The notes under the pieces: model-generated
Told to the model about the DNA's origin: nothing
Databases searched by the model: none
What the model saw: only the letters and a program-made list of their open reading frames with translations
Virus record (IMG/VR): IMGVR_UViG_3300033484_000013
Span: 1 to 22,761 of that record
Origin: a virus
DNA: 22,761 nucleotides
Direction: 5' to 3' (one strand)
In this document: piece after piece, positions 392 to 22,761 of the stretch
How positions within the stretch are numbered: position 1 is the stretch's first letter
Layout: the number at the start of each line of letters is the position of its first letter
Program-made: the position numbers and the translations under genes

Positions 392-1588
392 TCACGAGGC
401 GCTCAGCAGCAGTTCGGCGCCATCGAGCAGCAGCTTCAGCGCCGCGTCGTCGAGCCGGTCGACGCGGTCGATCGTCAGGCTGCGGCCGTCGAAGCTGGGG
501 CGGATATAGGCCGCCAGCCAGCCGTCGCCGTCGCGCGCGATCACCACGCGGTCGGCGCCGAGCGCCACCACCTTCTCGGCGCCCTGGCCAAGGCCGGGGA
601 GCTGCCGGACGATCGCTGCATCCAGCCCCGCGATCGCATCGGTCCCCATCCACGCCACGCGCTGCTCGCCGCCGCCCACCGCGGCCATCGCCGCGTCGTC
701 GAGCAGCATCGCCGGGAAGCGCCCGGCAGGCGCGGCGACGAAGCGCTGGAACTCGGGCGCGGCCAGCAGCTCGGCGAGCATCTGCGTCGCCTGGCTCGCA
801 GCGCCCGCCTGCGCGGCGTTCGCGGCCGAGGTGGCGGCCTTCTCGGCGGCGGCGCGCCACGCGGCCTCGCCGGGGTTGTACGCGAAGCCCGGATCGATGC
901 CGTGGGGCACCAGCTCGGGCGCGCTCGCGCCGGGGCGCCAGAAGGGCCTGGGCGGGCCGAGATCGGGCGGCGGCTTCGCAGCGACGCTCCACCCGCGGCT
1001 CTTCAGCTCGTAATCCGAGACGCTGATCGTGGTGCAGCGGCAGTTCCAGCCGCAGGGCGGGAAGTGCGTCTGCCACCATGGGTGGTCGATCGGCAGGATC
1101 GTGCCGTGCCACGCGGCGTGCTCGGGCCGCGTGCGGTTGTCGAGCACCGCCGAGTAGCGGAGGTACGGCCGATACTCCTTCGTGGCCTGATAGCGCGCCC
1201 AGTCGCCCGCCGCGCGGCTGACGCGGAGGTTGGTATCATAGATCGTCCGCAGCCGGTTGGGGCCGACGAAGACGGGCTGCGTCGTGCCGGTCAATTCCGG
1301 TTTTTGAACGAGGCCCCACCAGCCCTGCCGCTGCAGCGTCGGCACCAGTCCCTTCTGGAACTGCTCGAACGTCTGGCCCTCGGCGATCGCCGCGACGACC
1401 GCCTGCCGGATCGCGACGAGCGTATCGAGCTGGGCGGCCTTGGCGACGGTGAAATCGCGCGCGTGCTCGTCGGCGGCCATCTCGCGCCAGCCGACGGTGG
1501 GCCGGAAGCCCTTCGCACGGAAAGCCTTCAGCGCGTCGCCGGGCGGCTGATCGAAGGTCGCGCCCAGTATCTGCGGATCGTCAGCCAT
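392..1588 (-). CDS. Mu F-like head morphogenesis protein (gp30/MuF)
   Basis: This 398-residue protein matches the phage Mu F family, a minor head protein that works with the portal during head assembly and may be packaged. The family signature is seen around residues 150-185: DNRTRPEHAAWHG followed by FPPCGWNCRC, with the paired cysteines typical of MuF domains. The N-terminal part (residues 40-140) is helical and polar. The last 100 or so residues form an additional region that is not part of the core domain. The ATG overlaps the end of the preceding gene by 8 bases (ATGGCTGA), indicating translational coupling. Unlike Mu, where portal and F are adjacent, five small genes lie between them here. 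The family call is strong; the role of the tail region is unknown. Confidence 0.9.
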   Translation of the reverse strand: MADDPQILGATFDQPPGDALKAFRAKGFRPTVGWREMAADEHARDFTVAKAAQLDTLVAIRQAVVAAIAEGQTFEQFQKGLVPTLQRQGWWGLVQKPELTGTTQPVFVGPNRLRTIYDTNLRVSRAAGDWARYQATKEYRPYLRYSAVLDNRTRPEHAAWHGTILPIDHPWWQTHFPPCGWNCRCTTISVSDYELKSRGWSVAAKPPPDLGPPRPFWRPGASAPELVPHGIDPGFAYNPGEAAWRAAAEKAATSAANAAQAGAASQATQMLAELLAAPEFQRFVAAPAGRFPAMLLDDAAMAAVGGGEQRVAWMGTDAIAGLDAAIVRQLPGLGQGAEKVVALGADRVVIARDGDGWLAAYIRPSFDGRSLTIDRVDRLDDAALKLLLDGAELLLSAS

Positions 1589-1838
1589 CGGCGGCCGATT
1601 TCCGCACCAAAGTGCGGCTCTCCCGAATGATCGATGCGATCAAAGCCGCAGACGACATGAAATAGGATGCTGTCAATACTTCAGGCGCATCGAGATCGCA
1701 GGGGACATTCCAGAGCGCGCGGCGAACACCAGGCGGCAGAAGGTCGAAGGCCTTCATCTGCTCGGCAACCGTTCCTGGTGGCGCGACTTCAATCCCGAGA
1801 CGATCGGCCGTCGCCTGGTCAATTGCGTTCGCGTCCAT
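1581..1838 (-). CDS. Small phage protein of unknown function (85 aa)
   Basis: The protein begins MDANAIDQATADRLG and is 85 residues long. I do not recognise the family. It has a predicted mixed helical fold with a moderately hydrophobic segment (SYFMSSAALIASI) near residues 58-70 that is too short and broken to be a confident membrane span. The chosen ATG has a good Shine-Dalgarno (GGAGGG, about 4 bases away), and codon third positions become GC-rich from this point. Its stop overlaps the MuF start by 8 bases. It belongs to the block between portal and MuF, so a head-related role is possible but unproven. Confidence 0.7.
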   Translation of the reverse strand: MDANAIDQATADRLGIEVAPPGTVAEQMKAFDLLPPGVRRALWNVPCDLDAPEVLTASYFMSSAALIASIIRESRTLVRKSAADG

Positions 1839-2017
1839 CCCGCCCTCCGCACAGCCCAGCGGCTGACGATGTGGCGGACGCCATCCTCGAACTCGATCAG
1901 CGCCGAGTTCATGCGCCCGTGCGCAGCCTCCCGGATCGGGCCGATCAGCTCGGCCGACAACGCTTCGCAGTAGGCGTGGTTGGCGCGGTCGACGGCGGGG
2001 ATGCGGTGCTCTTTCAT
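1754..2017 (-). CDS. Small phage protein of unknown function (87 aa)
   Basis: The product starts MKEHRIPAVDRANHAYCEAL and is acidic and helical in its first 55 residues. A good ribosome-binding site (CAGGAG, 9 bases before ATG) and a TGATG overlap with the zinc-finger gene before it support the start. The last 28 codons overlap the following gene in another frame for 85 bases. That is much longer than any other overlap in this operon, and the sequence there reads like a shadow (TRTQLTRRRP). The true end may therefore lie near 1835, with a stop codon lost by mutation or sequencing error. Function not recognised. Confidence 0.6.
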   Translation of the reverse strand: MKEHRIPAVDRANHAYCEALSAELIGPIREAAHGRMNSALIEFEDGVRHIVSRWAVRRAGWTRTQLTRRRPIVSGLKSRHQERLPSR

Positions 2018-2467: not shown

Positions 2468-2811
2468 TCGGTTAAGCCTGCGGCTGCGCTGACGGCGAAG
2501 GCTCCGACGATCTTGGCAGCCGCGTTCGCGTCCTGTCCTGCCGCAACCAGGGCCGACACCGCCGCCCGCGCAAGGCCCATCGCAAATGCGACCGATAGAG
2601 AAGGCCAGGGGCCGCCCGAGCCCGCGCGTGTGTGGGGCGGCCGGTCAGGGTGCAGGCCCACATACGGCCCGACGTTCGCGGCTTCGGGGTACTCTATGCG
2701 GCTCAGCGCACCGGCGACGTAGCCCTTCACGAGCGCGTCGCGGAACAGATCGGAGGCGATCGGGTGTGCGGTCCGCGACCAGGCGATCGCCTCATCGTTC
2801 AGCGTGATCAT
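2464..2811 (-). CDS. Phage protein of unknown function (115 aa)
   Basis: The product starts MITLNDEAIAWSRTAHPIAS. Its C-terminal 45 residues are alanine-rich and helical (VAFAMGLARAAVSALVAAGQ...), which could be an amphipathic helix or a weak membrane segment. It follows the portal gene directly with an ATGA overlap, so it is made from the same message. No family recognised. The position next to the portal suggests a head-assembly or packaging accessory role, which is inference only. Confidence 0.7.
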   Translation of the reverse strand: MITLNDEAIAWSRTAHPIASDLFRDALVKGYVAGALSRIEYPEAANVGPYVGLHPDRPPHTRAGSGGPWPSLSVAFAMGLARAAVSALVAAGQDANAAAKIVGAFAVSAAAGLTE

Positions 2812-4394
2812 GCGCCAGATCCCTTCTTCTGGCTGTTGGCGAGCGCGCGGACGGCGAATCCTGCGCGTTCCAGCGCCTGCATCAGCGGCTCGTGATCGGT
2901 GTCCGGGAAGGCGGCATTCAGCGCCGCGTCGACCTCTTCGAAGCTGCCCGCCGCCTGCACCGCCGCGATCAGCGGCCCAAGCAGCGGATCGGTGACCTCC
3001 TGCCAGCCCGCGTCGAGCCGGGCGACGATCAGGTCGATCGCGTCCTGCGCCGCGGCCTGCGCGTCGGCGGCTGCCAGCTCGGTCACGTCGATCACCGGAT
3101 CGTCGGCGCCGCCGCCAGCATCGCCACCAGCGCTGCCCACGCCAGCGCCGCCCGCATCGGCGGCTGCGCCCTTGGCCGGTGCGGGTGGCGTCACCCGCTC
3201 CCAGCCGTCGCCATAGACCTCCTGGAAGCTGTCCTCGCTGCGCTGCCAGCCCATCTGCCACAGCTTGTAGTCGGCGTCGGCGGTCAGCCCGATGTCGCGC
3301 TCCTCCTTCACCAGGCGCGCGACCATCGGCTTCGGGCAGTCGTTGCCGAAGTTCATGCGCGTCCAGAAGTCGAGGATGTCGGATGTGTTGAAGCTGTCGC
3401 ACAGAAGGTCCGCGTCGGCCTTCACGATCTCCAGCTTAACCTCCTGGTGGGTCTGCGCCTGCGCGCGCGACGAGCCGTGATCGGTGGTCATCGTCTGCGA
3501 AAGGATGATCTTCGCGATGGCGCCGTCCATGTAGCGGCACAGCTCGCCGAAATCGCTGATCGAGCGCTTGGTCTCGAGCAGCTCGATGACCGTTTCGCTG
3601 GGCACCGCCATGCCGCTGTCGTTTGCCAGCTGGCGGATGGCCGACATGATCTTGTTGATCTCGTCGAGCGTCGCGCCCTGCCGGTATTTCGCGATGACCG
3701 TCGGCACGCCCAGCTTGTCGAGGAAGATGTTCCACGCCTTGATGCCGCCGCGCTTGAAATAGACCGGCCAGTAGAGCAGCTCGGCGAGCGACTGGCCGTA
3801 GAAGTCGGCGTCGCTCTCCATGCCGCTCGTCACCACCCAGAACTTGTTGGGCGGCAGCGCCTCGCCGGGCAGCATGTTCTCGCGGGTCAGCAGCCGGAGC
3901 GTGTCGTCGTCGCCCCAGCGGAAGCGGCGCGCGCGCTTGGGCACGATCTTCTTCCACGCCAGGCGGCGGGCGGCGTTCACCTCCCAGATCGCCTCGGCGA
4001 CCGAGTAGCCGTAGAAGCGGCTCCACAGCATCGCCTCGCACAGCCGGTCCCAGCCGACGGCCTGCAGGTCCTCCTCCAGCGCATCGGCCGCTGCCTGGGC
4101 GAGCGGCGTCTCGTCGCCCGGGATCACCTCCCACGGGCGCGAGATGTGCGCGTAGATGCGCTGCTGCATGCAGCTGGCGACCTGGTCGTCCTGCCGCACG
4201 CGGGCATATTCGCCCCAGTTGATCGCGCCCCACAGCCGCCGGTCGCTGGGCTCGCGCAGCCGCCCCATCCACTGGACGGTGATGTCGCGGCCGTTGCCGG
4301 TGGTGGCGATTTCTTGGCTGAGCTCGCGCACGTTCGCGGCCGGGCGGCCGCGGCCGCCGAACATGCGCTGATAGTCGGCGGGCGAGGTGGCCAT
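2808..4394 (-). CDS. Portal protein, Mu gp29-like (DUF935)
   Basis: This 528-residue protein is the portal of the Mu gp29/DUF935 family. As a dodecamer it would form the DNA entry channel at one capsid vertex and dock the terminase. Recognisable features include the N-terminal LREPSDRRLWGAINWGEYARV region, VASCMQQRIYAHISRPWEV, and RFRWGDDDTLRLLTRENM, followed by DKLGVPTVIAKYRQGA in the core. The region near residues 415-445 is a Gly/Ala/Asp-rich linker, followed by a helical C-terminal domain of about 85 residues. The start forms TGATG with the terminase stop. Length is normal for the family (Mu gp29 is about 512 residues). The assignment is secure. Confidence 0.93.
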   Translation of the reverse strand: MATSPADYQRMFGGRGRPAANVRELSQEIATTGNGRDITVQWMGRLREPSDRRLWGAINWGEYARVRQDDQVASCMQQRIYAHISRPWEVIPGDETPLAQAAADALEEDLQAVGWDRLCEAMLWSRFYGYSVAEAIWEVNAARRLAWKKIVPKRARRFRWGDDDTLRLLTRENMLPGEALPPNKFWVVTSGMESDADFYGQSLAELLYWPVYFKRGGIKAWNIFLDKLGVPTVIAKYRQGATLDEINKIMSAIRQLANDSGMAVPSETVIELLETKRSISDFGELCRYMDGAIAKIILSQTMTTDHGSSRAQAQTHQEVKLEIVKADADLLCDSFNTSDILDFWTRMNFGNDCPKPMVARLVKEERDIGLTADADYKLWQMGWQRSEDSFQEVYGDGWERVTPPAPAKGAAADAGGAGVGSAGGDAGGGADDPVIDVTELAAADAQAAAQDAIDLIVARLDAGWQEVTDPLLGPLIAAVQAAGSFEEVDAALNAAFPDTDHEPLMQALERAGFAVRALANSQKKGSGA

Positions 4395-5953
4395 CAGAAA
4401 CTCCCTCCGGACAGCCCGAACCCGTCGCCGCCGACGCCAAACCCGGCGAAGATGCTGTCGGGGTCAGCACCTGCGAGTCGGGGCGCGCGGAGCGCGTTGG
4501 CCGGGGTGAAATCGAACGGCTCGGACGCGTCGCGCACCGCCATCAGGAACAGCATGGAGGCGATCGCGGTGTCGCCGTGGCGCTTGCCCTTCGCGCCGTC
4601 GGCCTTGTCGGTGGTGCGGTCGACGATCATCGGCACGCCGCGCACCAGCTTCACCAGGCGGTGATCATCGAGCACGCCCTCGTCGCGCGGCAGCAGGAAG
4701 GTGCGATCTTCCAGCCCCGCCTTCAGCAGCGGCATGCCCGCCAGATAGGTGTTCTGGGTGGTCTGGACGCACTCGATCCGCGCCGCGCCGAACTCGCGGA
4801 GCAGCTCCTCGCTGATCTGCATGCCCAGCCCGCGCGCATCGAACTTCGCGCCGCAGAAGCGCGGCAGCGCGTGCAGGCTGCGCTTGGCGACCCACAGCTG
4901 CTCGCGGAAAGGGACGTTGCGCATCTCGACGATCACGCGCGCGCGGCGGGTGAGGTCGGGCTCGGTCTGGCCGAGCAGCAGCGCCGAGACGTCGCCGGTG
5001 CGCGCCCAGTCGCCGCCAGCGAAGCTGCGCTCACTCGTGGGGAAGTCGGCGAGCAGGGGGCGGACGTTCTCCTGCCACCACTCGGCGATCCACGCCTCGG
5101 CGCGGTCGGCGGGCCAGTGCACCAGCTCGTCGGGCGCGCGCAGGCGAACGACGTGGGCGTCGGCCACCATCGCGTCCTCGATCACCGCGCGGCTGAGATA
5201 GACGCCCGAGCCGCGCGCGGGGATCACGTCCAGCTCCTCCTCGGCGGCGGGGCCGTAGCGCGCGCGGAGCGAGCGCTCCCACTCCGCCTCGCCCTCGGGC
5301 GTCCATGCGGTGCCGGAAACGAGGCAAATTCGCTTGTAAAGGCCGTCGGCGAGCGCGTCCGCCAGGGTGACGCGCATCACGCATCCTTCGGTCTTTCCCG
5401 CCCGAATATCCTCAATGAGGATGTTGAACGGGTTGTCCGCACCGTCGTGGGTGGAGACGACGACGGTGCCCCCTCTCCCCCACATGCCGAGCGCCAGCGC
5501 CGCCTTGATCAGCTCGGGCAGGTTGTCGACGAAGGCTCCCTCGTCGATCCGGACCTTCCCCTGCTTGCCGCGGAGCGCGCGGGCCACCCCCGGCAGCGCG
5601 ACGATCGATTTGCCGCTGGGAAAGTCGATCCGATAGACCTTGAAGGCGTCCGATCCGTCGACCTTCCAGAAGAACTCGCCCTGGGTGGCAGCGATGTTGA
5701 AGGCCCTGGCGAACGACGCGCAATAATCGATGTACTCGCGGGTCATCTCAAGGTTGTACGACGTGTAATAGACGTCCTCCGCGCCCTCGGCAGCGCTGGC
5801 GCTCAATACATCGTCGGCAGCAAGGGCGTAGGTGATGCCCGTCCGGCGGCTCTTTTCGATCACCAACAGCTTGTGCTGGTGGCTTAGCTCCACGGCCCGC
5901 TGCTGGTAGGGCAGGAACAGCGGTACGTCCATCAGGGCGGCGAGCGCGCTCAC
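4394..5953 (-). CDS. Terminase large subunit, Mu gp28-like
   Basis: The 519-residue protein is the DNA-packaging motor and headful nuclease. A Walker A-like segment KSRRTGITYA lies at residues 34-43, Walker B VRIDEGA at 134-140, and the coupling motif VVVSTHDG at 164-171. The nuclease half shows acidic residues in GGDWART (D315), FDARGLG (D372) and HGDTAIA (D461), matching an RNase H-like fold. The GTG start overlaps the preceding stop (GTGA), and the portal follows with TGATG. In Mu, gp28 follows gp27 directly; here about 1.7 kb of other genes intervene. The fold and role are secure. Confidence 0.93.
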   Translation of the reverse strand: MSALAALMDVPLFLPYQQRAVELSHQHKLLVIEKSRRTGITYALAADDVLSASAAEGAEDVYYTSYNLEMTREYIDYCASFARAFNIAATQGEFFWKVDGSDAFKVYRIDFPSGKSIVALPGVARALRGKQGKVRIDEGAFVDNLPELIKAALALGMWGRGGTVVVSTHDGADNPFNILIEDIRAGKTEGCVMRVTLADALADGLYKRICLVSGTAWTPEGEAEWERSLRARYGPAAEEELDVIPARGSGVYLSRAVIEDAMVADAHVVRLRAPDELVHWPADRAEAWIAEWWQENVRPLLADFPTSERSFAGGDWARTGDVSALLLGQTEPDLTRRARVIVEMRNVPFREQLWVAKRSLHALPRFCGAKFDARGLGMQISEELLREFGAARIECVQTTQNTYLAGMPLLKAGLEDRTFLLPRDEGVLDDHRLVKLVRGVPMIVDRTTDKADGAKGKRHGDTAIASMLFLMAVRDASEPFDFTPANALRAPRLAGADPDSIFAGFGVGGDGFGLSGGSF

Positions 5954-7496: not shown

Positions 7497-7648
7497 GGCA
7501 GAAATCCGGCGCGGCGGGCCTGCGCTTGGCTGTCACAAGCCACCGCGGCTTCTCCCACAGCGTTGACCGGGACCGGCAGCGCAGGCGGGTGACCCGGTGC
7601 CGCCGCGGCCACCGGGTGGAATGGGGAGAGCCGCAACGTCGCCCTCAT
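7493..7648 (-). CDS. Very small phage protein of unknown function (51 aa)
   Basis: A 51-residue frame, MRATLRLSPFHPVAAAAPGH..., fills the space between DUF3486 and the winged-helix gene exactly. It starts with ATGA on the DUF3486 stop and ends with ATGA on the next start. The sequence is Ala/Pro-rich with no recognisable domain. The double ATGA junction is the main evidence that it is translated. It may be a coupling ORF or a remnant. Confidence 0.5.
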   Translation of the reverse strand: MRATLRLSPFHPVAAAAPGHPPALPVPVNAVGEAAVACDSQAQARRAGFLP

Positions 7649-8208
7649 GCCGCGGCCTTCAGGCCGAGCAACTGGGACTTGATCCGGTTGATCGTCTCGG
7701 GCGAGGCGCCGCCGTCGCGCGCGGCCTTCTCGGCCACCTTGCTCGCCTCGTCGAGCGCCTGCTTGCGCGCGGCGTCGCGGATCTTCTCGACGGTCTCCAC
7801 GTCGAGCTTTCGGGCGCTCGCCAGATCCTTGCAGGCTTTCGCGAAGAAGTGCGCGTCCATCGCGCTGACGCCCGATCCCTCCTCGGCATCGTCGTCGTTG
7901 GCGGTGAGCGCCCTCAGGCCGAGCTTGGTGACGACGCTCGTGAAAATCTGCGTCAGCACGCGGACCTGGTCGTTGCCCTCGGCGCCGAACTCCGATCCGA
8001 ACGCGCGAGCGACGGTCGCGATGTCGCGCTGCTGGTCGGCGACCTTGCGCCAGTTCTTGGCCCAGCGGCCGACCGCCGAGCGACTGACGTCGCCGCCCAG
8101 CTCGCCGATCGTCGCTGCGATCTCGTCGACCGTTGCGCCGCGCGCGATCGCGCTGACCGCGGCGGCCTTGATCTTCGGATCGAGCCGTTCGACCGTGCTG
8201 CGCGCCAT
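7645..8208 (-). CDS. Mu gp27-like protein (DUF3486), putative small terminase subunit
   Basis: The 187-residue protein starts MARSTVERLDPKIKAAAVSA and has an N-terminal helix-turn-helix: TVDEIAATIGELGGDVSRSAVGRW. It then has a long helical part (TRSQ-poor, rich in Ala, Lys and Asp) ending KSQLLGLKAAA. This is the DUF3486/Mu gp27 family, which by position and architecture (DNA-binding head plus helical oligomerisation region) is thought to be the small terminase subunit that recognises the packaging site. The start is TGATG with the gp26-like stop. The family call is good; the terminase role follows from knowledge of Mu-type gene order. Confidence 0.85.
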   Translation of the reverse strand: MARSTVERLDPKIKAAAVSAIARGATVDEIAATIGELGGDVSRSAVGRWAKNWRKVADQQRDIATVARAFGSEFGAEGNDQVRVLTQIFTSVVTKLGLRALTANDDDAEEGSGVSAMDAHFFAKACKDLASARKLDVETVEKIRDAARKQALDEASKVAEKAARDGGASPETINRIKSQLLGLKAAA

Positions 8209-8486
8209 CAGCGCACCCGCTCCACACCATCGACCGCCAGCCGCCGCGCTGCCACGTCGCGGCCGTCGTCGGTGATGTCGGCGACGAGATACGGCCCGGC
8301 CTCGGTGGTGGCGACGAGGCCGCGGTCGGCGAGCCATTCGAGCGCTTCGCGCACCGTGCGGCGCGCGGCGGGGTGGCCGACGCTCGACAGGCTGGCCGCG
8401 ATCACCTCGTCGTTCATCGCGACGCCCGCGGCGTCGAGGAACTTCAGGATCGCGCCGCGCAGCACGGCCGCCACGATCTCGTTCAC
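8208..8486 (-). CDS. Mu gp26-like winged-helix protein (92 aa)
   Basis: The product (MNEIVAAVLRGAILKFLDAAG...) has the layout of a winged-helix protein: a helical start, RRTVREALEWLADRGLV as recognition-helix region, then ATTEAGPYLVADITDDGRDVA as wing. Its place between DUF2730 and DUF3486 is that of Mu gp26 and its relatives. The GTG start overlaps the DUF2730 stop as GTGA. Function in the phage is not established; involvement in packaging or late regulation is plausible. Confidence 0.7.
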   Translation of the reverse strand: MNEIVAAVLRGAILKFLDAAGVAMNDEVIAASLSSVGHPAARRTVREALEWLADRGLVATTEAGPYLVADITDDGRDVAARRLAVDGVERVR

Positions 8487-9593: not shown

Positions 9594-9622
9594 GCTTACC
9601 CCGGCGCGGACGCCGGGGTGTG
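9594..9622 (-). promoter_or_regulatory. 29-bp dyad element upstream of the leftward late operon
   Basis: Read on the minus strand, the element is CACACCCCGGCGTC followed by CGCGCCGGGGTAAGC. It contains ACCCCGGC, six bases, GCCGGGGT (9598-9619), a perfect dyad. The same element with two mismatches stands at 20086-20114 before the rightward late operon, in the same orientation relative to transcription. It lies 56 bases before the first late start codon and downstream of the Mor-like gene. Mu Mor and C bind interrupted dyads upstream of middle and late promoters, so an activator site is the favoured reading. A Rho-assisted terminator hairpin is the alternative; no T-run follows. Confidence 0.55.
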
Positions 9623-14215: not shown

Positions 14216-14883
14216 GGGCGCCTCCGGCCGAGGATCGGGCCTTTCAGCCCCTCGGGCCTGCGCGTGACGTCGCAGAGATAGCCGGTGTTCGGATCATGGA
14301 AGTTGAGCGTGCGGCCACCAGCCTCGTCGGTCCGGTGCAGGAGAGAAGGCGGCTTCGCGCCGGTGTGCTTCAGCACCATCCAGCGTGTGGTCTCGCCCGG
14401 GCGATTGCCGGGTCCGCGCACCGGCCGGGTGTAGCCAGCGTAGTAGAGCCGGAGCAGGTAGGGCCGCGCGGTCGTCACGGGCACCTGTGAGACCGTCGCG
14501 AGCTGGTCGACATCGAACGGCCCGCGCAGGCGCAGCAGGCGCAGCGCGCGCCACATGCGCTCCTGGCCGGTGGTGCGCGGCGTGCAGCCGGGCCGCCTGA
14601 CCGGGCTCTTGGCGCTGACGCCAGTCACGATCGGCAGCGTGCGCGGTGCACCGGCTTTCGCGCGCCAGCTGCGCCGCTCGCGCTGCCCGTCGGCGCGCTC
14701 GCCGCCCTCCGCCAGGACGAGCTCGACCAGGCCAGCGCGCTTCCACTTGTTGAGCGTGTTGCTGACCGAGCGCACCGAGGCGCTCCCGCCAGCGTGCGCC
14801 CAGAGCGCAGTCGCGGTCATCGGCTGCGCCGCGGCCACCAGCGCCGACCAGACGCCGTCCATGGAGGCGGGCGCGCGGCCCAT
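14212..14883 (-). CDS. Protein with two winged-helix-like segments (223 aa)
   Basis: Two regions look like winged helices. Residues 8-60 read WSALVAAAQPMTATALWAHA with SVSNTLNKWKRAGLVELV, and residues 108-160 read MWRALRLLRLRGPFDVDQLA with VTTARPYLLRLYYAGYTRP. They are joined by an Arg-rich linker. It probably binds DNA and may assist B or act in replication of the phage DNA. The start forms TGATG with the end of B. No named family recognised. Confidence 0.65.
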   Translation of the reverse strand: MGRAPASMDGVWSALVAAAQPMTATALWAHAGGSASVRSVSNTLNKWKRAGLVELVLAEGGERADGQRERRSWRAKAGAPRTLPIVTGVSAKSPVRRPGCTPRTTGQERMWRALRLLRLRGPFDVDQLATVSQVPVTTARPYLLRLYYAGYTRPVRGPGNRPGETTRWMVLKHTGAKPPSLLHRTDEAGGRTLNFHDPNTGYLCDVTRRPEGLKGPILGRRRP

Positions 14884-15657
14884 CAGGCAGCAAGCCGCCG
14901 GGCCGGCAGCTCGCCGGTGAGGATCGGGCGGTCACCCCACCATGCGCGATCGATGTCGGTGACGCCGACGGCCTTCGCCGCGCTCTGCGCATTGAGGAGT
15001 GTCGTCACCAGTCGGCGGGCATTGCCGCCGCTGACGGTCAGGAAGTGGTGGAGCAGATCGTCGGCGATGCCGACGCGGCCCGACTTCAGGTCCTGCTCGC
15101 TCGGCGTGTCCTTCCACGCGCGGCAGCGGTTGTCGCGCAGCGCGCGGGCGTCCTCGAAATCGGTCGGCTGCGCCTTGACCCATGTACGAACGCGGTTGTG
15201 GACGTGACCCCAGCGGCGGATGCTTTCGGGGAAGGTGTCCTCGCCCACGAACAGGATCGGCATCTGCGAGCGGTCGGAGATCTTGCGCGCGACCTGGATT
15301 AGGTTGAGCTTCAGCAGGAAGTCGGCCTCGTCGAGGATGATCGGCCGCTGCTGCTCGACCAGCGCTTCGACGACCTGGTGAAACAGTCCTTCGAAGGTGC
15401 GCTCGGGCGACTTGATGTGCAGCTCACGCGCGAGCTCGGTCATCAGCCACTTCTTGCCGATGCCCTCATAAGCCTCGACATAGACGGCATCGAGCTGAGC
15501 GCCGCAGAAAAAAAACGCTCTCGGTCTTGCCGAGGCCGGAGCGGCCATAGAACACGCCGAAGCGTGGTGTTCCGAACTCGGCCCCGACCAACTCTTCCAG
15601 AGTCTGCAGCGCCAGTGTCATGTTGGTCGTCGGTGCAGGTGGTGGTCGCATCTTCAC
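14883..15657 (-). pseudogene. B: Transposition target-DNA ATPase B (AAA+), frameshifted in an 8-base homopolymer
   Basis: The product is the MuB-type AAA+ ATPase that binds target DNA, delivers it to the transposase and provides target immunity. Walker A is GRSGLGKT (about residues 38-45) and Walker B is IILDEADFLL in the second frame. Coding runs in one frame from the GTG at 15657 to GKTESV, then a run of eight T on the coding strand (15508-15515) puts the continuation (FFCGAQLDAVYVEAYEG...) one base out. With seven T the frame is continuous for 257 residues. As written the first frame stops soon after the run. This could be a sequencing error, a true mutation, or transcriptional slippage that makes some functional B. 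The GTG overlaps the end of A (GTGA). Confidence 0.85.
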
Positions 15658-17285
15658 GATAGGTTACCTTCCGCCTTTGAGAACAGCTTCTCGATGCGCT
15701 TCTGCGCACGATATTCAGGTTCTCCGCGCATCATGTTCGCCCGCGCGAAGTCCCGTTCTTCGACGGGTTCACCCGCAGCTGCGCGCGCGAGGATGGAGTC
15801 GACCCAGCGCATCCGTTCGGCCGGGGTCATGGCTTCGAGCGTCGGTGCCGCTGGCTCGGCGGTCAGCGCCGACTTGACGCGCTCGGCGACGTCGGGCCGG
15901 ATCGCGATCAGCTGCGGCTTGGGCCGGGGTGGCGCGATCGGCGCTAGCGGTTCGGGCGCACGATCGAGGGCTGGCGCCAGCATCTCCGCCTTGGCTGCGC
16001 GCGCCTCCCAGATGATCTCCTCGGGCCGCCAGCGCCTGGCCGCTGCGAGCAGTTCGGCCTGCAGCTCGGCGACCGCGCGCTCCTTCTTGCGGCCTGCCGC
16101 GATCGCGAAGTCACGCTTGGAAAGCCCGAGCGCCTCGTGGTTCAGCGCCTCCCCGATCAGGTTCCAGCGCTGATCGAAGACCAGGAGGCGACCGATATCG
16201 TCCTCCATGCGACGGACGCGGACGCGCTCTCCGTCGCGGCCGATCAGGCACTCGCTCCAGTAGCTGTGGCCCTGATGAACTAGACCCTGCTTGCCCCTCA
16301 CGGTCTTCTCGCCCAGATCCTCGGCGAGCGCGGCGATCAGGATGTTGCGGTCGGGCAGCTCGGCCGGGCGATAGCCTTCGGGCCAGCGCAGCACGCGCTC
16401 GGCTGGCATCTCGCCGGTGGCGCCGTGCGGGCGCAGCCGGTAGCGCCCCGCCAGATACGCGTCGTAGAAGCGCTGCGCCTCCTGCGGGGTGTGGCTGCCG
16501 GTGATCACCGCGCGGCCGGTTTCGCGCTTGGCCTGCGAGCGCAGGCGCTGGGCGGCGGCGACGTTCGGGCCGGTATAGCCGGGGATCAGCCGCGACCCCG
16601 CGTGCATCAGCGTGCGGATGAACGCTTCGACGAATGGCTTCCGGTAGGGCTGCCCGGGGAGGCAGTAGCGCATCTCGATCCCCAGCAGCTTCGCGGCCGA
16701 CTTGACCGACAGCGACGCAAGGCCCGAGCCGTTGTCGGTGCGGATCGCTTCCGGGACCGCGCGCCAGTAGAGGATCGCGGAGAGCAACAGCTTCCGGACC
16801 GCTTCCGAACTCTCGCTGTTGTCGACGATGACGACCGCGTCGCGGCTCCAGACGTCGACCGCGACGAGGACCGTCTTGCGCCCCTCGCTCGTCATCACGT
16901 CCATCTTGGTCGCGTCGATTTCCCACAGCTGGTGCGGGCGCGAGACCTCGGCCGCCATGTCGCCCGCCGCGAGCATGTGGCGGCTGCGATAGCCGTCGCT
17001 GTCGTGCAGGCGGGTCAGCACCTCGCCGTGGCGCGCGCGGAAGTCTGCGACGAAATAGCGGACGGTTCGGTAGGAAGGCGCGTCCCCGCCATAGCGCGCC
17101 TGCAGCAGCTCGTGCGCGTCGGCGGCCGAGGCGTGGGAGTTCCTGGTCAGCAGGCTGCGCACCATGCCCACCGCCTGCGGGTGCCGATCGAACCAGCCCG
17201 ATCCAGCAGGGCGTCCACGGCCCGACCGCGGCTGCGCGGCAGGCGCGAAGTCCGCAGTGACGAGGCGGAGCAGCGGGCGGGTCAT
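15654..17285 (-). CDS. A: Transposase A, Mu-type DDE recombinase
   Basis: The 543-residue protein carries the DDE triad: WEIDATK (D124), IRTDNGSGL (D184) and KPFVEAFIRT (E220). The last two are 35 residues apart after the first, as in DD35E recombinases. Residues 25-110 form the end-binding helical region, and the C-terminal part (from about 330) contains the beta-barrel and a tail that would contact B. It is shorter than MuA (663 residues): the N-terminal enhancer-binding domain (Ialpha) appears absent, and Ner is a separate gene upstream. It would cut and join phage ends during integration and replicative transposition. Start overlaps ner by ATGA. Confidence 0.93.
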   Translation of the reverse strand: MTRPLLRLVTADFAPAAQPRSGRGRPAGSGWFDRHPQAVGMVRSLLTRNSHASAADAHELLQARYGGDAPSYRTVRYFVADFRARHGEVLTRLHDSDGYRSRHMLAAGDMAAEVSRPHQLWEIDATKMDVMTSEGRKTVLVAVDVWSRDAVVIVDNSESSEAVRKLLLSAILYWRAVPEAIRTDNGSGLASLSVKSAAKLLGIEMRYCLPGQPYRKPFVEAFIRTLMHAGSRLIPGYTGPNVAAAQRLRSQAKRETGRAVITGSHTPQEAQRFYDAYLAGRYRLRPHGATGEMPAERVLRWPEGYRPAELPDRNILIAALAEDLGEKTVRGKQGLVHQGHSYWSECLIGRDGERVRVRRMEDDIGRLLVFDQRWNLIGEALNHEALGLSKRDFAIAAGRKKERAVAELQAELLAAARRWRPEEIIWEARAAKAEMLAPALDRAPEPLAPIAPPRPKPQLIAIRPDVAERVKSALTAEPAAPTLEAMTPAERMRWVDSILARAAAGEPVEERDFARANMMRGEPEYRAQKRIEKLFSKAEGNLS

Positions 17286-17572
17286 TGCGGCCCTGCCCTG
17301 CGGCCGCAGCGCGGGCGCGGCTGCGGCGACTTGCGCGAGCCGTCCGGATGATATCGTGACGGCCAGATAACTTCCGGGTGCAACCCGAGCGTCTTCGCGA
17401 TGGCGCGTTCGGCCGGGCCATGCGGGCGGTGGAGTGCAAGGGAGATAACCTGACGATGCAGCAGATGAGCCTCCGCCACCTGCCGGAGGGTCACGTCGCG
17501 CTTTCGGATCGCTGCCTTGATGTCCTCGGGATGCCAGTCCCGGGCCCGCAGGCCGTCCCTCTCCATGGACAT
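17282..17572 (-). CDS. ner: Ner-like early regulator (helix-turn-helix)
   Basis: The 96-residue protein matches Mu Ner/SfsB: DWHPEDIKAAIRKRDVTLRQ, then HLLHRQVISLALHRPHGPAE, RAIAKTLGLHPEVIWPSRYH. Ner is a small DNA-binding protein that shuts down early and repressor transcription once the lytic cycle starts. It is the first leftward gene, divergent from the repressors across an 80-base control region. The ATG at 17572 is used; a second ATG lies two codons later. No strong SD precedes it, so it may be translated from a leaderless or short-leader message. The C-terminal 20 residues are basic. Confidence 0.9.
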   Translation of the reverse strand: MSMERDGLRARDWHPEDIKAAIRKRDVTLRQVAEAHLLHRQVISLALHRPHGPAERAIAKTLGLHPEVIWPSRYHPDGSRKSPQPRPRCGRRAGPQ

Positions 17573-17652
17573 ATGATGTGCCCTGCGGGACTTTGCTTTG
17601 TCAATGCGGTTCCACTAGCGCGCAAAAAAGTTTCGGAGGGCGCCCAGGCGGC
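17573..17652. promoter_or_regulatory. Divergent control region between ner and the repressor genes
   Basis: This 80-base region must hold the early leftward promoter, the repressor promoter and operators. On the minus strand a perfect -35-like TTGACA lies at 17604-17599, but the hexamer 17 bases on (GCACAT) is a poor -10. ACAT-ATG-ATGT (17569-17579) is a small dyad overlapping the ner start and a candidate operator. The rightward repressor has GGAGGG at 17635-17640. The region is AT-richer than the flanks, including AAAAAA. Exact promoters cannot be fixed from sequence alone. Confidence 0.5.
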
Positions 17653-18312
17653 ATGAAGCCGGAGTGGAATTTCTCAGCTGACGCGAAAGATCGGCTGCGC
17701 CGCGCCGTCGAGCGCTGGGGCAACCAGGCGCGCGCCGCGGCGGCGTCGGGCCTCAACAAGCAGACGGTACAGCGACTGCTCGATCCGAAGGTGGAAAGCG
17801 ATGTGTCGCTGACGCGTGTCGCAGCGCTTGCGCGAACCGTTGGCGTCAGTCTCGACTGGGTTATTCACGGGCGGCAGGAGCCCGCGTCCGGACCCGGAGA
17901 GGAGTTTGGCTTAGTGGCGCTCTACGATATCGAGTTGGCGGCTGGGCATGGCCGCCAGCCGATGACCGAGGAGCCGACGGGGTTTTTCGCGTTCAGGCAG
18001 GATTATCTGAACCGCTTCGCCGACCGGTCAGCACTCGCGGTCCTGACGGTCAGGGGCGACTCCATGACGCCTGAGCTGCAGGACGGCGATAATGTGCTAA
18101 TCGACCGGGCGCAGTCCCGCGTGGGGGACGGCATCTATGCCGTGCGCCTCAGCGATCAGCTGCTGATCAAGCGGGTGCAGCAGATGGTTGGCGGCATCTG
18201 CCTGCGGAGCGACAACCGAGCCTATGAGCCTCTCTACCTGGCCAATGGCGATCCCGAGTGGGCGATCCTTGGCCGGGCCGTGTGGGTCGGCCGCAAGCTG
18301 GCAACCGATTAG
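17653..18312 (+). CDS. CI/LexA-like prophage repressor 1 (HTH + S24 peptidase)
   Basis: The 219-residue protein has an N-terminal helix-turn-helix (residues 12-70; GNQARAAAASGLNKQTVQRL) and a C-terminal LexA/S24 domain with the serine in RGDSMTPELQDGD (S137) and lysine in LLIKRV (K173), spaced 36 residues as in LexA. An Ala-Gly bond in ELAAGHG (97-98) is in the right place for self-cleavage, so induction by RecA after DNA damage is plausible. The ATG at 17653 is preferred over upstream codons in frame because the HTH starts here. It should keep the early operon silent during lysogeny. Confidence 0.85.
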   Translation: MKPEWNFSADAKDRLRRAVERWGNQARAAAASGLNKQTVQRLLDPKVESDVSLTRVAALARTVGVSLDWVIHGRQEPASGPGEEFGLVALYDIELAAGHGRQPMTEEPTGFFAFRQDYLNRFADRSALAVLTVRGDSMTPELQDGDNVLIDRAQSRVGDGIYAVRLSDQLLIKRVQQMVGGICLRSDNRAYEPLYLANGDPEWAILGRAVWVGRKLATD

Positions 18313-18327
18313 AGGACCGTAGAGCGC
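18271..18327 (+). repeat. Direct repeat at the end of repressor 1 (copy 1 of 2)
   Basis: These 57 bases align without gaps to 18964-19020. The first 29 are identical (codons for GRAVWVGRKL) and about 19 of the next 28 match, running past the stop codon into non-coding DNA. This shows that the two repressor genes arose by tandem duplication including their 3' flank. Confidence 0.75.
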
Positions 18328-18354
18328 TATTCCTGCGTGGGAAGGGGGTAAATC

Positions 18355-18996
18355 TTGTTAACGAGCGACGAGAGGGACCGCTTGCGGGAGGCGATCCGGC
18401 GTGCGGGCGGCTACGACCGTGTTCACGCGGCGACCGATATCCCTGTGTCGACGCTGAAGAAGATGGTTGGCGAGGCGAGCGATCCGGGGTTCAGCCGAAC
18501 GGCGAGGGTTGCCCGTGCAATAGGTCTCGGGCTGGAGGAGTTGGCGTTTGGCGACGCTCCGGGCTCAAGCAAAAGCGGCATGTCTGAATTCGGGCACATC
18601 CCGCTCTATGACGTGGAAGTGTCTGCCGGAGATGGACGCACGGGAACCCTCGAGCGGCCAGTCGGCACGCTCGCATTCCGTGAGGACTATCTGCGAAGGT
18701 TCAGCGACCGGTCGAAGCTCGCTGTGCTGCTCGTGCGCGGCGATTCGATGGTGCCCGAGCTGCAGGACGGCGACCATCTGCTGATCGATCAGTCAGAGCG
18801 CCACGCGGCCGAGGGGCTTTGCGTGGTTCGGTGGGGCGACCTACTGATGGCGAAACGGATTGTTCGAACGTCGGCGAGCGGCATGCGACTGGTCAGCAGC
18901 AATCCCATCTACCCGCCGATCGAGATCGACCGCGACGCCGAGGGCGACAACTTCGCGATCATCGGCCGGGCCGTGTGGGTCGGCCGCAAGCTCTGA
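18355..18996 (+). CDS. CI/LexA-like prophage repressor 2 (HTH + S24 peptidase)
   Basis: The 213-residue protein begins at a TTG with a strong ribosome site (AAGGGGG). Its C-terminal S24 domain is clearly related to repressor 1, about half identical by eye, with the serine in RGDSMVPELQDGD (S131), lysine in LLMAKR (K167) and an Ala-Gly bond in VSAGDG. The N-terminal 60 residues (REAIRRAGGYDRVHAATDIP, TLKKMV) differ from those of repressor 1, so the two probably recognise different operators. It may be co-transcribed with repressor 1, 42 bases downstream. The weak TTG start suggests lower expression. Its distinct role, perhaps controlling the other arm of the phage, is inference. Confidence 0.85.
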   Translation: MLTSDERDRLREAIRRAGGYDRVHAATDIPVSTLKKMVGEASDPGFSRTARVARAIGLGLEELAFGDAPGSSKSGMSEFGHIPLYDVEVSAGDGRTGTLERPVGTLAFREDYLRRFSDRSKLAVLLVRGDSMVPELQDGDHLLIDQSERHAAEGLCVVRWGDLLMAKRIVRTSASGMRLVSSNPIYPPIEIDRDAEGDNFAIIGRAVWVGRKL

Positions 18997-19142: not shown

Positions 19143-19451
19143 GTGAAGCCAGACGAAGACGCTGCCGCACTGCCGGTGACGCCAACGGCGAGCCGATCGT
19201 TGCCCGCGCTTGCAACCGCCTCGCTCGTCGTGACGGCAGTGTCCACGGCGGCGATGGCGATCTGGCTCATTGCACCCGGCTCGCTGCGTCCCGGCATCTT
19301 CGGACCAAGCCAGGCGGTGTGCGCGAGAGCGGCGGGACAGGAAGCCGAAGCCCGCGCCAGGCTGCTTACCAGTCGCAACGACCCGTATAACGCCATGATC
19401 GCTGCCAGCGAGATCAAAAACCTTCAGGTGGTGCTGAGCCGCTGCGACTGA
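19143..19451 (+). CDS. Small single-span membrane protein (102 aa)
   Basis: The GTG-initiated product has a polar start (MKPDEDAAALPVTPTASRSL), one membrane segment at about residues 22-46 (LATASLVVTAVSTAAMAIWLIA) and a 55-residue soluble tail with two cysteines. Codon use is looser than in the late genes, like that of the repressors. It lies between the immunity region and the capsid operon on the same strand as both, a place where phages often carry genes expressed in the lysogen. It could be an exclusion or envelope protein; no family recognised. A ribosome site is not obvious. Confidence 0.55.
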   Translation: MKPDEDAAALPVTPTASRSLPALATASLVVTAVSTAAMAIWLIAPGSLRPGIFGPSQAVCARAAGQEAEARARLLTSRNDPYNAMIAASEIKNLQVVLSRCD

Positions 19452-19650
19452 CGGGTGGCGTTTGCGTCGGAGGCTTCCAACCGATTAGGCCGCGCAGAAC
19501 CGCTCGCAAACTGCCTTAAGGTCCGTCCGTAGCGCGGCACCCCCCCGAAAAAGCGCTGGCGGGGCTGTGAAAGGGATTCCCAGGCCGATCGTTCGGCGCC
19601 GCGACCCTGCAAAGCTGGCAACGGCACCGCGAGCGGGCTACAACGCGCGC

Positions 19651-20025
19651 GTGAACGCCGTCCGGTCGATCATCGCGCTCGCCGCGGCGCTGGCGTTGGC
19701 CTCCTCTCCGGCGGGTGCCGCGCGCAAGGCGTCGGCCGCACGCAAGCTCTGCTGGCAGGGCTATTGCCCCTGCACCGGCCCGTACCGCGACGGCCCCGAT
19801 TTCATGATCTGCCGCCAGCTGCGCGCGGGCATCCACGTGGAACCCCGCATCCTCGCTGCTGCGTCGGGCCTGCGCGACGCACGGCGGCAGATGGCGGAGT
19901 TCTCGTGGGGCGGCGATACGAGCCTCCGCGAGAAGCGGCGGATCACACGCGATCCCTGCCTGGGCATCGAGACCCCAAGCGAGATACGGCTGTGCGAGGC
20001 CGAGCACGATCAGCCCCGCCACTAG
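19651..20025 (+). CDS. Small secreted, cysteine-containing protein (124 aa)
   Basis: From the GTG at 19651 the protein has a signal peptide: NAVRSIIALAAALALASSPA with a likely cut after AGA (about residue 22). The mature part holds CWQGYCPCTG and further cysteines (MICRQ, DPCLG, RLCEAE), six in all, suggesting disulfides in the periplasm. A longer frame from 19567 adds 28 residues that would mask the signal peptide, so I prefer the shorter start. Third codon positions are GC-rich in this frame. No family recognised. It may be a lysogenic-conversion gene. A minus-strand frame across the same DNA also begins with a signal-like sequence but has worse codon use. Confidence 0.6.
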   Translation: MNAVRSIIALAAALALASSPAGAARKASAARKLCWQGYCPCTGPYRDGPDFMICRQLRAGIHVEPRILAAASGLRDARRQMAEFSWGGDTSLREKRRITRDPCLGIETPSEIRLCEAEHDQPRH

Positions 20026-20085: not shown

Positions 20086-20114
20086 CACACCCCGGCGTCG
20101 GTGCCGGGGTAAGC
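20086..20114 (+). promoter_or_regulatory. 29-bp dyad element upstream of the rightward late operon
   Basis: The element reads CACACCCCGGCGTC then GGTGCCGGGGTAAGC and contains ACCCCGGC, six bases, GCCGGGGT (20089-20110). It matches 27 of 29 bases of the element before the leftward late operon, in the same sense relative to transcription. It ends 30 bases before the protease ATG. A CTACAG at 20131-20136 is a possible -10-like hexamer, which would put the dyad centre near -43. A Mor/C-type activator site is the favoured reading; a terminator hairpin is the alternative. Confidence 0.55.
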
Positions 20115-20144
20115 GTCGACGCGGCCCGCTCTACAGCCGTCTCC

Positions 20145-21110
20145 ATGACGGCCCGCGTCCCTGTCCGCTTCCGGATCCTCCGGCCCCGCAAGACGGCGGA
20201 CGTGCGCGGGCGTCCCGTCGAGTTCCGGTCCGAGCATCTCGACCAGGTCGTCGCGAACTTTGCCGCCGAGGGATCGAGGGTGCCCGTCGTCATCGGCCAC
20301 CCGGAGACGAACGCCCCCTCCTACGGCTGGGTCAACAAGGTCGAGCGCGTCGGCGACGCGGTCTATGCGGACGCCGACGTCCACCCCTCCTTCGCGGCGG
20401 TGCTGAAGGACGGGTTCTACGGCCCTGTCAGCCCCTCGCTGTGGGGGCCGGAGCAGCCCGGCAACCCAAAGCCCGGCGAATGGACGCTGCGCCACATCGG
20501 CGTGCTCGGCGCCGCCGCCCCCGCCATCCCCGGCCTGGAACCGGTGGAGCTGAGCGGCGGCCACGAAGACTTTCAGCTCATCGAGGAGCAGGACCCCGTG
20601 ACCTACAAGACCACCGACCTCGCCGCCGAGCTGGCGGCGAAGGAAGCCGCGCTCGCCGAGCGCGAGGCGAAGCTGGCCGATGCCGAGAAGGCAGCGGCTG
20701 CCGCCCAGGCCAGGGCCGTGCGCGACGGCGCGATGGCGTTCGCCGCCGGGCTGGTCGACGCGCACAGGCTGGCCCCGGCCGCGAAGGACGCGGTCGTCGA
20801 GCTGCAGGTCGCGCTCGCTGGTGCCGCGGTCGAGCCGTTCGCCTTCGCTGCGGGCGGCGACAAGGTCGACCCGCTGACCGCCTTCCGCAAGCTGTTCGAA
20901 GGCGCGCAGCCGCTGGTGCCGCTGGGCGAAGTCGCCGGTGCTGCGACCGATCCTGAAACAGGCTCGACATACACCTTCTCGGCGCCCGTCGGCGTCGCCG
21001 TCGAAGCGCGCGGCGCCAAAATCGATGCCGAGGCCAAGCGGCTGATGGCTGCCGACCCGAAGCTTTCCTACAGCGAGGCCGCCATCCGCGCCTCCAAGTC
21101 CATCGCCTGA
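20145..21110 (+). CDS. Head maturation protease with scaffold tail, Mu I-like
   Basis: The 321-residue protein matches the Mu I-like family. Residues 1-140 form the protease part (HLDQVVANFAAEGSRVPVVI, GHPETNAPSYGWVNKVERV, FYGPVSPSLW, LRHIGVLGAAAPAIPGLEPV). Residues 160-195 form an Ala/Glu/Lys-rich coiled coil (AAKEAALAEREAKLADAEKA), typical of the scaffold half that is removed as the head matures. The C-terminal end is helical (AEAKRLMAADPKLSYSEAAI). In Mu this gene follows F on the same strand; here it opens a separate rightward operon. No clear SD precedes the ATG, so the message may start very near it. Confidence 0.85.
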   Translation: MTARVPVRFRILRPRKTADVRGRPVEFRSEHLDQVVANFAAEGSRVPVVIGHPETNAPSYGWVNKVERVGDAVYADADVHPSFAAVLKDGFYGPVSPSLWGPEQPGNPKPGEWTLRHIGVLGAAAPAIPGLEPVELSGGHEDFQLIEEQDPVTYKTTDLAAELAAKEAALAEREAKLADAEKAAAAAQARAVRDGAMAFAAGLVDAHRLAPAAKDAVVELQVALAGAAVEPFAFAAGGDKVDPLTAFRKLFEGAQPLVPLGEVAGAATDPETGSTYTFSAPVGVAVEARGAKIDAEAKRLMAADPKLSYSEAAIRASKSIA

Positions 21111-21123
21111 GGAGCGCGATCCG

Positions 21124-21789
21124 ATGAGCCAAGAAAATGTCGTCCTCCCGATCACGCTCAAGGCATCGGGCGTGGTCACCAAATTCCGCTTCGTTACCCC
21201 GGCGGGAGCGCAGGTCTCTGCGCTGAACACGCCCTCGATCGGCGTCAGCAAGTATGACGCCGCGACCGGCACCAACTTCGCCGCGACCGTGCTCGGCACG
21301 GCGCGCGTGGAGGCGGGCGGCGCGGTCAACGTCGGCGACAGTGTCGGCGCGGACACGAGCGGTCGCGCGATCGTCGCGAACGGCATCCTGATCCAGGGCA
21401 TCGCCCTGCAGGCCGCCAGCGCGGCGGGCCAGTTGATCGAGGTGTTCCTGATGCATCAGCGCGAGCGCGGCAGCTTCCGCGTCGTGACCGCTGGTGCGGG
21501 CGGCCACACCGCAGGCGCCTTCGTTGCCTTCGATGCGACGACCCAGTCGGCCGCCGGTGCGGCCTGCCTCGGCATCGCGCTCGCAACCGTCGCGGCGGGC
21601 CAGCCCTCGGTCGTTCAGCTTTCGGGCGTCGGCCAGGCGCTCGCCGGAACCGGGGGTCTGGCGCTCGGCGGGCCGGTCAAGAGCGCGGCCGACGGCAGCG
21701 CCATCGCGCAGGGCGGTACCGGCGTCATCGCAGCCTACGCGCTCGCAGCCATCACCGCGGGCCAGCTCGGCCCCGTCCTCATCAAGTAA
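21124..21789 (+). CDS. Capsid decoration protein with two similar halves
   Basis: The 221-residue protein is glycine, alanine and valine-rich and strand-rich, like DUF2190-type head decoration proteins found between protease and capsid genes. Two halves look alike: residues about 40-105 (LGTARVEAGGAVNVGDSVGA ... AASAAGQLIEVFL) and 150-221 (LSGVGQALAGTGGLALGGPV ... AAITAGQLGPVLI). Single-domain members are about 110-120 residues, so this looks like a tandem duplication or fusion. It would bind the outside of the capsid and stabilise it. A GGAG lies 9 bases before the ATG, 13 bases after the protease stop. Confidence 0.7.
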   Translation: MSQENVVLPITLKASGVVTKFRFVTPAGAQVSALNTPSIGVSKYDAATGTNFAATVLGTARVEAGGAVNVGDSVGADTSGRAIVANGILIQGIALQAASAAGQLIEVFLMHQRERGSFRVVTAGAGGHTAGAFVAFDATTQSAAGAACLGIALATVAAGQPSVVQLSGVGQALAGTGGLALGGPVKSAADGSAIAQGGTGVIAAYALAAITAGQLGPVLIK

Positions 21790-21813
21790 CCGTCCGGCCA
21801 GGAGCCCGATCCC

Positions 21814-22761
21814 ATGTCGATGACCCTAGCACAGGCCCGCGTTTCCGATCCGGTCCTGACCGAACACGCCCGCGGCTACACCAACGCGGATTTCGTCGGC
21901 GAGCGCGTGTTCCCGCGCGTCGACATGCCCACGCGCGCAGCCAAGCGCATCATCTTCGGCAAGGAGCATTTCCGCCGCTACAATGTGGAGCGCGCGCCCG
22001 GGGGCCAGATCCGCACCATCACTTTCGGCCTGGCGTCCGCGACTGTGTCGCTGACGCAGCGCGCGCTGGGCTGCGTCGTCCCGCGCGAGTGGGTTGAGGA
22101 GGCGCAGAACGTCCCCCAGCTCAACCTCCAGCTCGATGCGGTCGACGTGACGATGCAGGTCGTCAGCCTCGAGAAGGAAATCTCGATCGCGAACGTCGTG
22201 CGCGACGCGACGCGCTATGCCAACGCCAACAAAACGGTGCTCAGCGGCGCGAGCCAGTGGAGCCAGTCCACCTCGACGCCGCAGAAGGACGTGCTGACCG
22301 CGCAGGATGGGGTCCGCGCGGCGATCGGCCGCCGCCCCCAGTGCATCGTCATGGGTGGCAAGGTCTATTCGGCGCTGCGCTACCACCCGAGCGTGCGCGA
22401 CTACTTCAAGTACACCTCCACCGAGGTGATCACCGAGTCGATGCTCGCCACCTATTTCGGCGTGTCCGAGGTGATTGTCGGCGACGGCGTTTACACCACC
22501 GACGGCGGCACCACGATGTTCGATATCTGGGGCGGCGACGTGGTGCTGTTCTTCAAGGCGCCCGCCCGCACCAACGGCCGCCGCTCGATGGCGATGCCGG
22601 GCTTCGGCTATCTCTACGGCCTGCTGAACTACCCGTATGTCGAGCCGATCCGCTTCGAGAAGGCCATCGCGAGCTGGCAGGCGGACTATTACGACGAGTG
22701 GTCGCCCGAGATGGTCGGCCCCGACGCAGGTGACCTGCCCCCGTCGAGTGGACCGGGTTGA
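21814..22761 (+). CDS. Major capsid protein
   Basis: The 315-residue protein starts MSMTLAQARVSDPVLTEHAR, has good ribosome site GGAG 9 bases upstream, and follows the decoration gene by 24 bases. Features of an HK97-fold coat protein include an extended N-arm, RRYNVERAPGGQIRTITFGL, the long helix region QLDAVDVTMQVVSLEKEISI, ARYANANKTVLSGASQWSQ, and the axial domain (YTSTEVITESMLATYFGVSE, ending PYVEPIRFEKA). It does not look like Mu gpT; it resembles coat proteins of other tailed phages and prophages. The frame ends on the last base of the window. Tail genes would be expected to follow. Confidence 0.85.
   Translation: MSMTLAQARVSDPVLTEHARGYTNADFVGERVFPRVDMPTRAAKRIIFGKEHFRRYNVERAPGGQIRTITFGLASATVSLTQRALGCVVPREWVEEAQNVPQLNLQLDAVDVTMQVVSLEKEISIANVVRDATRYANANKTVLSGASQWSQSTSTPQKDVLTAQDGVRAAIGRRPQCIVMGGKVYSALRYHPSVRDYFKYTSTEVITESMLATYFGVSEVIVGDGVYTTDGGTTMFDIWGGDVVLFFKAPARTNGRRSMAMPGFGYLYGLLNYPYVEPIRFEKAIASWQADYYDEWSPEMVGPDAGDLPPSSGPG

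Follow-up and report, generated by a model that had tools for sequence, protein, structure and literature searches.

The stretch of DNA analysed here, hereafter the window, is the entire IMG/VR record IMGVR_UViG_3300033484_000013 (22,761 nt), a fragment in which Mu-type head genes lie in two divergent operons on either side of the transposition genes and repressors. In our assessment (probability about 0.9), the window is an internal fragment of one Mu-like phage, belonging to a lineage that arose from a Mu-ordered ancestor by one inversion of ~18–20 kb, a single event offering what would be the simplest history. The lineage is a real clade of Mu-like phages of Sphingomonas-type bacteria with head genes in two divergent operons. 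A split head module is known from phage KS10, and the present arrangement is a new variant. While head genes with co-assembling products are usually thought to stay together, here they are kept on opposite strands throughout the clade, the two head operons flanking the lysis–lysogeny switch and the genes of both arms being under purifying selection.

Relatives and phage ends

Scanning viral contigs with the protease, portal, capsid and transposase of the window matched no relative. A genome scan with a capsid alignment led to two Sphingomonas genomes, their capsid 48 % identical, with the same divergent transposase–ner–repressor–protease–capsid order; among the other capsid loci, most of those of sufficient length had portal and MuF immediately before the protease and co-oriented with it. 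A search with a MuA alignment over 397 genomes of the family of genome G001, in which relatives were kept at profile E<1e-190, yielded seven close relatives (G001, G002, G290, G136, G271, G040 and G113), and an eighth, G1011, came from an order-level draw. All eight carry MuF–TerL–MuA on one strand and repressor–protease–capsid–tail on the opposite strand; the divergent order first noticed in the window thus recurs in every one of these close relatives, and its layout is not due to chance. Nor are these relatives copies of one assembly, since the transposases of the seven family members are only 35–38 % identical to that of the window. Two of them, G002 and G290, share 85–93 % DNA identity, with ratios of non-synonymous to synonymous substitution rates of 0.02–0.18 in nine genes drawn from the two arms and the regulatory region, which argues that both arms are maintained. 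In trees of the window and seven relatives, the split phages form one clade for both TerL (Shimodaira–Hasegawa-like approximate likelihood-ratio test, SH-aLRT, 100) and portal (SH-aLRT 99).

For the phage ends, pairs with TG in one flank, CA in the other and an identical 5-bp flank were ranked by the similarity of their termini. In five of five genomes so ranked, the top or joint-top pair shared a common consensus, TGTGAC... at the MuF/Dam tip and TGTAGC... at the tail tip; because the ranking was independent of the consensus, its recurrence in five genomes is evidence that these are the ends. The ends of G1011 were sought with the consensus itself, giving a sixth pair. In these six relatives, one end pair encloses both arms, with perfect 5-bp target duplications as follows.

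G136: target duplication ATCGA, unit 39,159 bp
G271: target duplication CTCGA, unit 38,635 bp
G113: target duplication TCCTC, unit 37,539 bp
G290: target duplication CTGAA, unit 37,211 bp
G001: target duplication CCGAT, unit 40,266 bp
G1011: target duplication CCGAA, unit 37,940 bp

All six have 5'-TG...CA-3' ends with target duplications at varied sites, and the mapped units (37.2–40.3 kb) match the ~37–40 kb genome of Mu-like phages; both arms are one transposition unit of 37–40 kb whose ends lie at the distal tips of the arms. The ends were not found in G040, where the prophage is near one end of its contig. Homologous host genes, resembling an exopolysaccharide locus, adjoin two of the prophages (G136:C1 2833246–2836057 and G271:C116 17971–20872). 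The initial annotation had argued that the left end cannot simply lie beside the repressor genes, as it does in Mu, unless the capsid genes belong to another element, and the first of these alternatives is borne out: the end pairs take in both arms, and the repressor–ner region sits near mid-genome, 17.9–20.2 kb from the left end in the five relatives measured.

It had also been stated that an attachment end or host gene fragment between positions 18996 and 20145 would assign the capsid operon to a separate prophage. In the five phages scanned, repeated 14-bp sites resembling transposase sites (14.6–23.1 bits) are concentrated near each end; in several phages, those of the right tip stand in tandem and those of the left are spaced apart. 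The same scan of the window gave nothing above 10.9 bits, i.e. chance-level matches only, and the best score in the repressor–protease gap was 8.6 bits, with about six such matches expected by chance in the window. No end is therefore present in the gap. Likewise, no evidence of a host gene fragment was found there; the two open reading frames (ORFs) that it holds, X1 and X2, match no family.

Gene map of the window

Profile searches (Pfam and PHROG) on the ORFs of the window confirmed the gene families and strands, and with them the initial reading that the packaging arm (MuF, portal, TerL, TerS) runs leftward and that protease, cement and capsid run rightward past the repressors. The ner–MuA–MuB genes are co-oriented with the packaging arm (minus strand), and both repressors with the capsid arm (plus strand).

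1–390, minus: Dam-type (D12) DNA methyltransferase, C-terminal part, 5'-truncated, last gene of the left arm (phrog_56, E=4e-26)
392–1588, minus: MuF minor head protein/DNA pilot (phrog_220, E=1e-87; PF04233, E=1e-24)
2808–4394, minus: portal protein, Mu gp29 (phrog_113, E=1e-107)
4394–5953, minus: terminase large subunit TerL, Mu gp28 (phrog_2, E=2e-20)
7645–8337, minus: terminase small subunit TerS, Mu gp27 (PF11985, E=8e-22; phrog_426)
8208–8486, minus: gp26-like protein (phrog_436, E=3e-21)
8914–9378, minus: endolysin (M15 peptidase), near the start of the left late operon (phrog_894, E=7e-41; PF08291)
9594–9622, minus: palindrome copy 1, before the left late (lysis–packaging) operon
9722–10207, minus: Mor-family activator candidate (PF08765, E=2.7e-4; 21.4 bits against a curated cut-off of 24.9)
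10204–10890, minus: GemA (PF06252, E=2e-22)
13278–13847, minus: Gam end-protection protein (PF07352, E=2e-12)
14883–15657, minus: MuB-like transposition ATPase (phrog_296, E=1e-27, over 14883–15548)
15654–17285, minus: MuA-like DDE transposase (phrog_310, E=2e-51; rve, Mu-transpos_C)
17282–17572, minus: ner (PF13693, E=9e-25)
17653–18312, plus: S24 CI-like repressor 1, longest ORF from 17578 (PF00717, E=5e-20)
18355–18996, plus: S24 CI-like repressor 2 (PF00717, E=1e-20)
19143–20025, plus: X1 (19143–19451) and X2 (19567–20025), two ORFs in a variable slot
20086–20114, plus: palindrome copy 2, ending 31 bp upstream of the protease gene, in a position like that of the Mu I promoter (PI)
20145–21110, plus: head maturation protease (phrog_976, E=2e-61)
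21124–21789, plus: head cement/decoration protein (PF09956, E=1e-13)
21814–22761, plus: major capsid protein (phrog_1005, E=3e-79)

Of the features listed for Mu-like phages in the Saltoviridae proposal, the window holds a MuA DDE transposase and a MuB ATPase together with GemA, Gam and MuF-type head genes. The MuA of the window is without the N-terminal HTH_Tnp_Mu_1 domain, which relatives G001 and G002 keep, and TerL is 36–43 % identical to the terminases of HS6, RC1 and MuM16-1. The gp27/TerS gene probably starts near 8220. The first three bases of the record are the stop codon of the Dam fragment and the last three that of the capsid gene, suggesting that the record was trimmed at gene borders; the ends of the window are thus not phage ends.

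The Dam fragment beside MuF covers positions 158–246 of the 253 of the MethyltransfD12 profile (E=0.0013, under the Pfam cut-off); its N-terminal half is missing, and it looks like a 5'-truncated remnant. Longer Dam genes stand at the left tip in G001, G136, G271 and G113, and there is a Dam match there in G1011. The distance from the stop of Dam to the phage end is about 270–330 bp in four relatives. In G002 and G290, Dam lies antisense between repressor and protease, a slot that is variable and holds other genes in the relatives; X1 and X2, which occupy it in the window, have no Pfam or PHROG match and no match in relatives. The two tandem S24 repressors (17578–18996) are 45 % identical to each other, and the mapped relatives have a single repressor at that place.

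Proposed origin by inversion and late control

The direction of change is indicated by ten outgroups found with the transposase profile, five at class level (G543, G551, G418, G529 and G697) and five at phylum level (G1024, G1041, G1102, G1171 and G1257), all of which have head genes and transposase on one strand. In the four outgroups whose ends were mapped, the left-type end lies ~0.7–1.2 kb from the repressor. The two kinds of end can be told apart: the right end starts TGTAGC in 10 of 10 mapped elements, canonical and split alike (for G1011 this start was part of the search), and 2–4 GGGA-type blocks fall within 110 bp in the left end versus 0–1 in the right (nine elements). In split phages, the MuF/Dam tip carries the left-type end and the tail tip the right-type one, so that one inversion of the repressor-to-MuF segment converts the canonical order into the split one. 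The canonical Mu order, with the repressor beside the left end and one co-directional head block, was not found in this lineage.

In such an event, the segment repressor–ner–MuA–MuB–lysis–terminase–portal–MuF would have been flipped in place, with one breakpoint a short way inside the left end (attL) and the other at the MuF|protease boundary, inverting about half of the genome. The attL-type end would then stand at the MuF/Dam tip and the attR-type end still at the tail tip, the lysis–lysogeny switch would come to lie mid-genome, and each arm would retain a late operon of its own, lysis–packaging–portal–MuF in one and protease–cement–capsid–tail in the other.

How divided operons might stay coordinated is suggested by a 29-bp palindrome. 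Its two copies in the window are identical at 27 of 29 nt and lie on opposite strands, one before each late operon, copy 1 being just behind the Mor-like gene. Although the sequence differs in G113 and G271, these phages have matching copies at the same two places, and in the window, G113 and G271 none of the 37–40 random segments per phage scores as high (0/37 for the window). Canonical phages also have palindrome pairs before the lysis and protease operons, exact in RcapMu and G697 and 2–3 mismatches apart in G551, G418 and G543; RR1-B has four copies. In Mu, the I promoter precedes the protease gene I. Activator C governs the expression of the Mu late genes, which have the separate promoters lys, I, P and mom (PMC4461284). 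The palindromes are putative late-promoter elements, and their matching copies before both late operons suggest joint late activation. The Mor candidate sits between GemA and the late operon, like the late activator in RcapMu and RR1-B; this position and a sub-threshold profile match point to a possible activator role. A Mor/C-type activator acting at the palindrome would switch on both operons together, so that all head parts would be made simultaneously. With the inversion boundary just upstream of the protease element, each half would keep its own late control, and the halves could be separated without losing coordination.

Alternatively, the palindromes could be shared terminators or host-type repeats, a view that we regard as unlikely. 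GC-rich hairpins can act as terminators, the promoter role is a prediction, and of the split phages tested about half have no clear pair. However, the palindromes precede both late operons on the strand that is transcribed, their sequence varies between phages while matching within each phage, and RcapMu and RR1-B show the same pairing directly behind the gene of the late activator.

Several observations weigh against a single inverted lineage under shared late control. Trees of MuA, protease and capsid resolve no single split clade, and that of the capsid is broken by G271, whose capsid groups with that of canonical G418. The palindrome match in G290 is not a good palindrome, no convincing pair was found in G001, G136 and G1011, and the Mor candidate falls below the Pfam cut-off. 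The phage ends of the window itself can be placed only by likeness to its relatives, as the window stops before both; a TGTG(A/C)C...-type left end is predicted some 300 bp to the left of position 1, and about 15 kb of tail genes followed by a TGTAGC-type right end beyond position 22761. As to G271, the different capsid type in the same divergent position (G271:C116:45990–46706) reads as a capsid swap with the layout kept. An origin of the capsid arm in another phage was also considered, the nearest named relatives, RR1-B and RcapMu, carrying a different TerL; it was rejected because prophages hold both kinds of genes in one unit.

It is highly improbable that the capsid operon is part of a neighbouring second prophage or that the record is an assembly chimera. 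X1 and X2 have no phage family match, the ends of the record fall exactly at gene ends, and the window by itself would leave room for such an explanation; yet the same order occurs in eight relatives, three of them with mapped ends on contigs of 1.4–3.7 Mb, a single end pair with a 5-bp duplication surrounds both arms in six, and there is no end motif within the gap. Somewhat less remote, and still improbable, is a history in which the protease–capsid–tail module was moved and inverted, or in which several rearrangements took the place of one left-half inversion. Dam stands at the right end in canonical RR1-B and phiSHP3, whereas here it is found at the left tip or in the centre; the Dam gene, at least, has therefore moved, and between its repressor and protease G136 carries a partial copy of MuF. 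Nonetheless, the tail module keeps its order beside the TGTAGC-type right end and the left-type end lies by MuF, which is the outcome of a left-half inversion. The G136 piece (G136:C1:2812147–2812410, on the protease strand) spans 88 aa, is 66 % identical to the phage's own MuF, and may be a relic of an ancestral MuF–protease neighbourhood or of a breakpoint duplication.

Beyond a single inversion in this clade, we tentatively propose that Mu-like genomes contain a permissive inversion unit, the attL-to-PI segment. Because each half has its own late-activator element, this segment may have inverted independently, each time at the same pair of boundaries: in this clade from a Mu-ordered ancestor, and in KS10 and a Magnetococcales prophage from a BcepMu-ordered one. 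The operator region of Mu, close to its left end, also serves as a transposition enhancer. Here, the operator and any enhancer would have moved 18–20 kb from the left end, so the transpososome would be built without an end-proximal enhancer. The clade thus offers a natural test of Mu gene order, namely whether it matters for transposition to have an enhancer or operator close to the left end, and whether split head operons can be coordinated by a shared late activator alone. It also counsels caution when calling boundaries: prophages should not be cut at the repressor.

Comparison with known systems

No description of the present gene order was found in the open-licence papers searched. Canonical Mu, RcapMu, RR1-B, HS6, RC1 and prophages G551, G418, G529 and G543 have the same kinds of genes and transposition proteins, and the mapped canonical prophages share with the split phages TGT...ACA ends and 5-bp duplications; they differ in having the repressor near the left end (~0.7–1.2 kb in mapped prophages) and all head genes on one strand. 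In BcepMu-type phages (phiSHP3, Lsp-JY19), early and late genes diverge from the regulatory region, as here, but only the early genes are flipped, and TerL–portal–MuF–protease–capsid form one co-directional block. The transposable TG1 prophages of Leptospira have TerS–TerL–portal separated (PMC8705779); unlike here, their head and tail modules are reported to share one orientation, and no Mor/C genes were found in them (PMC8705779).

Among Magnetococcales, loci L067, L077 and L082, with the repressor beside the protease, first resembled this layout, but prophage G003:C166 (L214–L216) proved to be KS10-type, with MuF–portal–TerL leftward and ner–MuA–MuB–GemA–protease–capsid rightward. In G004:C40 (L217–L219), L067 and L082, the repressor is directly upstream of protease–cement–capsid; host-like genes lie beyond the repressor in L077 and L067 and upstream of it in G004:C40, and no TerL was found on that stretch of the G004 contig. 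Terminase and portal genes could not be located for these loci. Elsewhere (L076, L078 and L089), the capsid gene precedes the protease gene, opposite to the usual order.

The closest parallel is Burkholderia phage KS10 (NC_011216), which was considered unique for its divided capsid module when described in 2008 (PMC2628397). The initial annotation gave a single co-directional head block for Mu and its B3/D3112 relatives; this holds for Mu and B3, but the head genes of KS10 are already split at the same place, and KS10 is in turn not the only phage with a divided capsid module. KS10 forms plaques (PMC2628397), so a split layout works. No palindrome pair was found in KS10. KS10 was reported without TG...CA ends, yet its right terminus (L187, ~37625–37635), AGTAGCGCGCC, resembles the TGTAGCGCGCC right ends here, and its first base may deserve a recheck. 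Like the phages described here, KS10 has its head module split at the MuF|protease boundary and its repressor mid-genome: the genes for MuF, portal, terminase and lysis run leftward from the left end, and those for protease, capsid and tail run rightward. In contrast to them, KS10 has the repressor co-directional with the packaging arm, and its transposase, MuB, GemA and Mor genes share the rightward direction of the protease, whereas the window and all eight relatives have MuA and MuB on the packaging arm and the repressor with the capsid arm.

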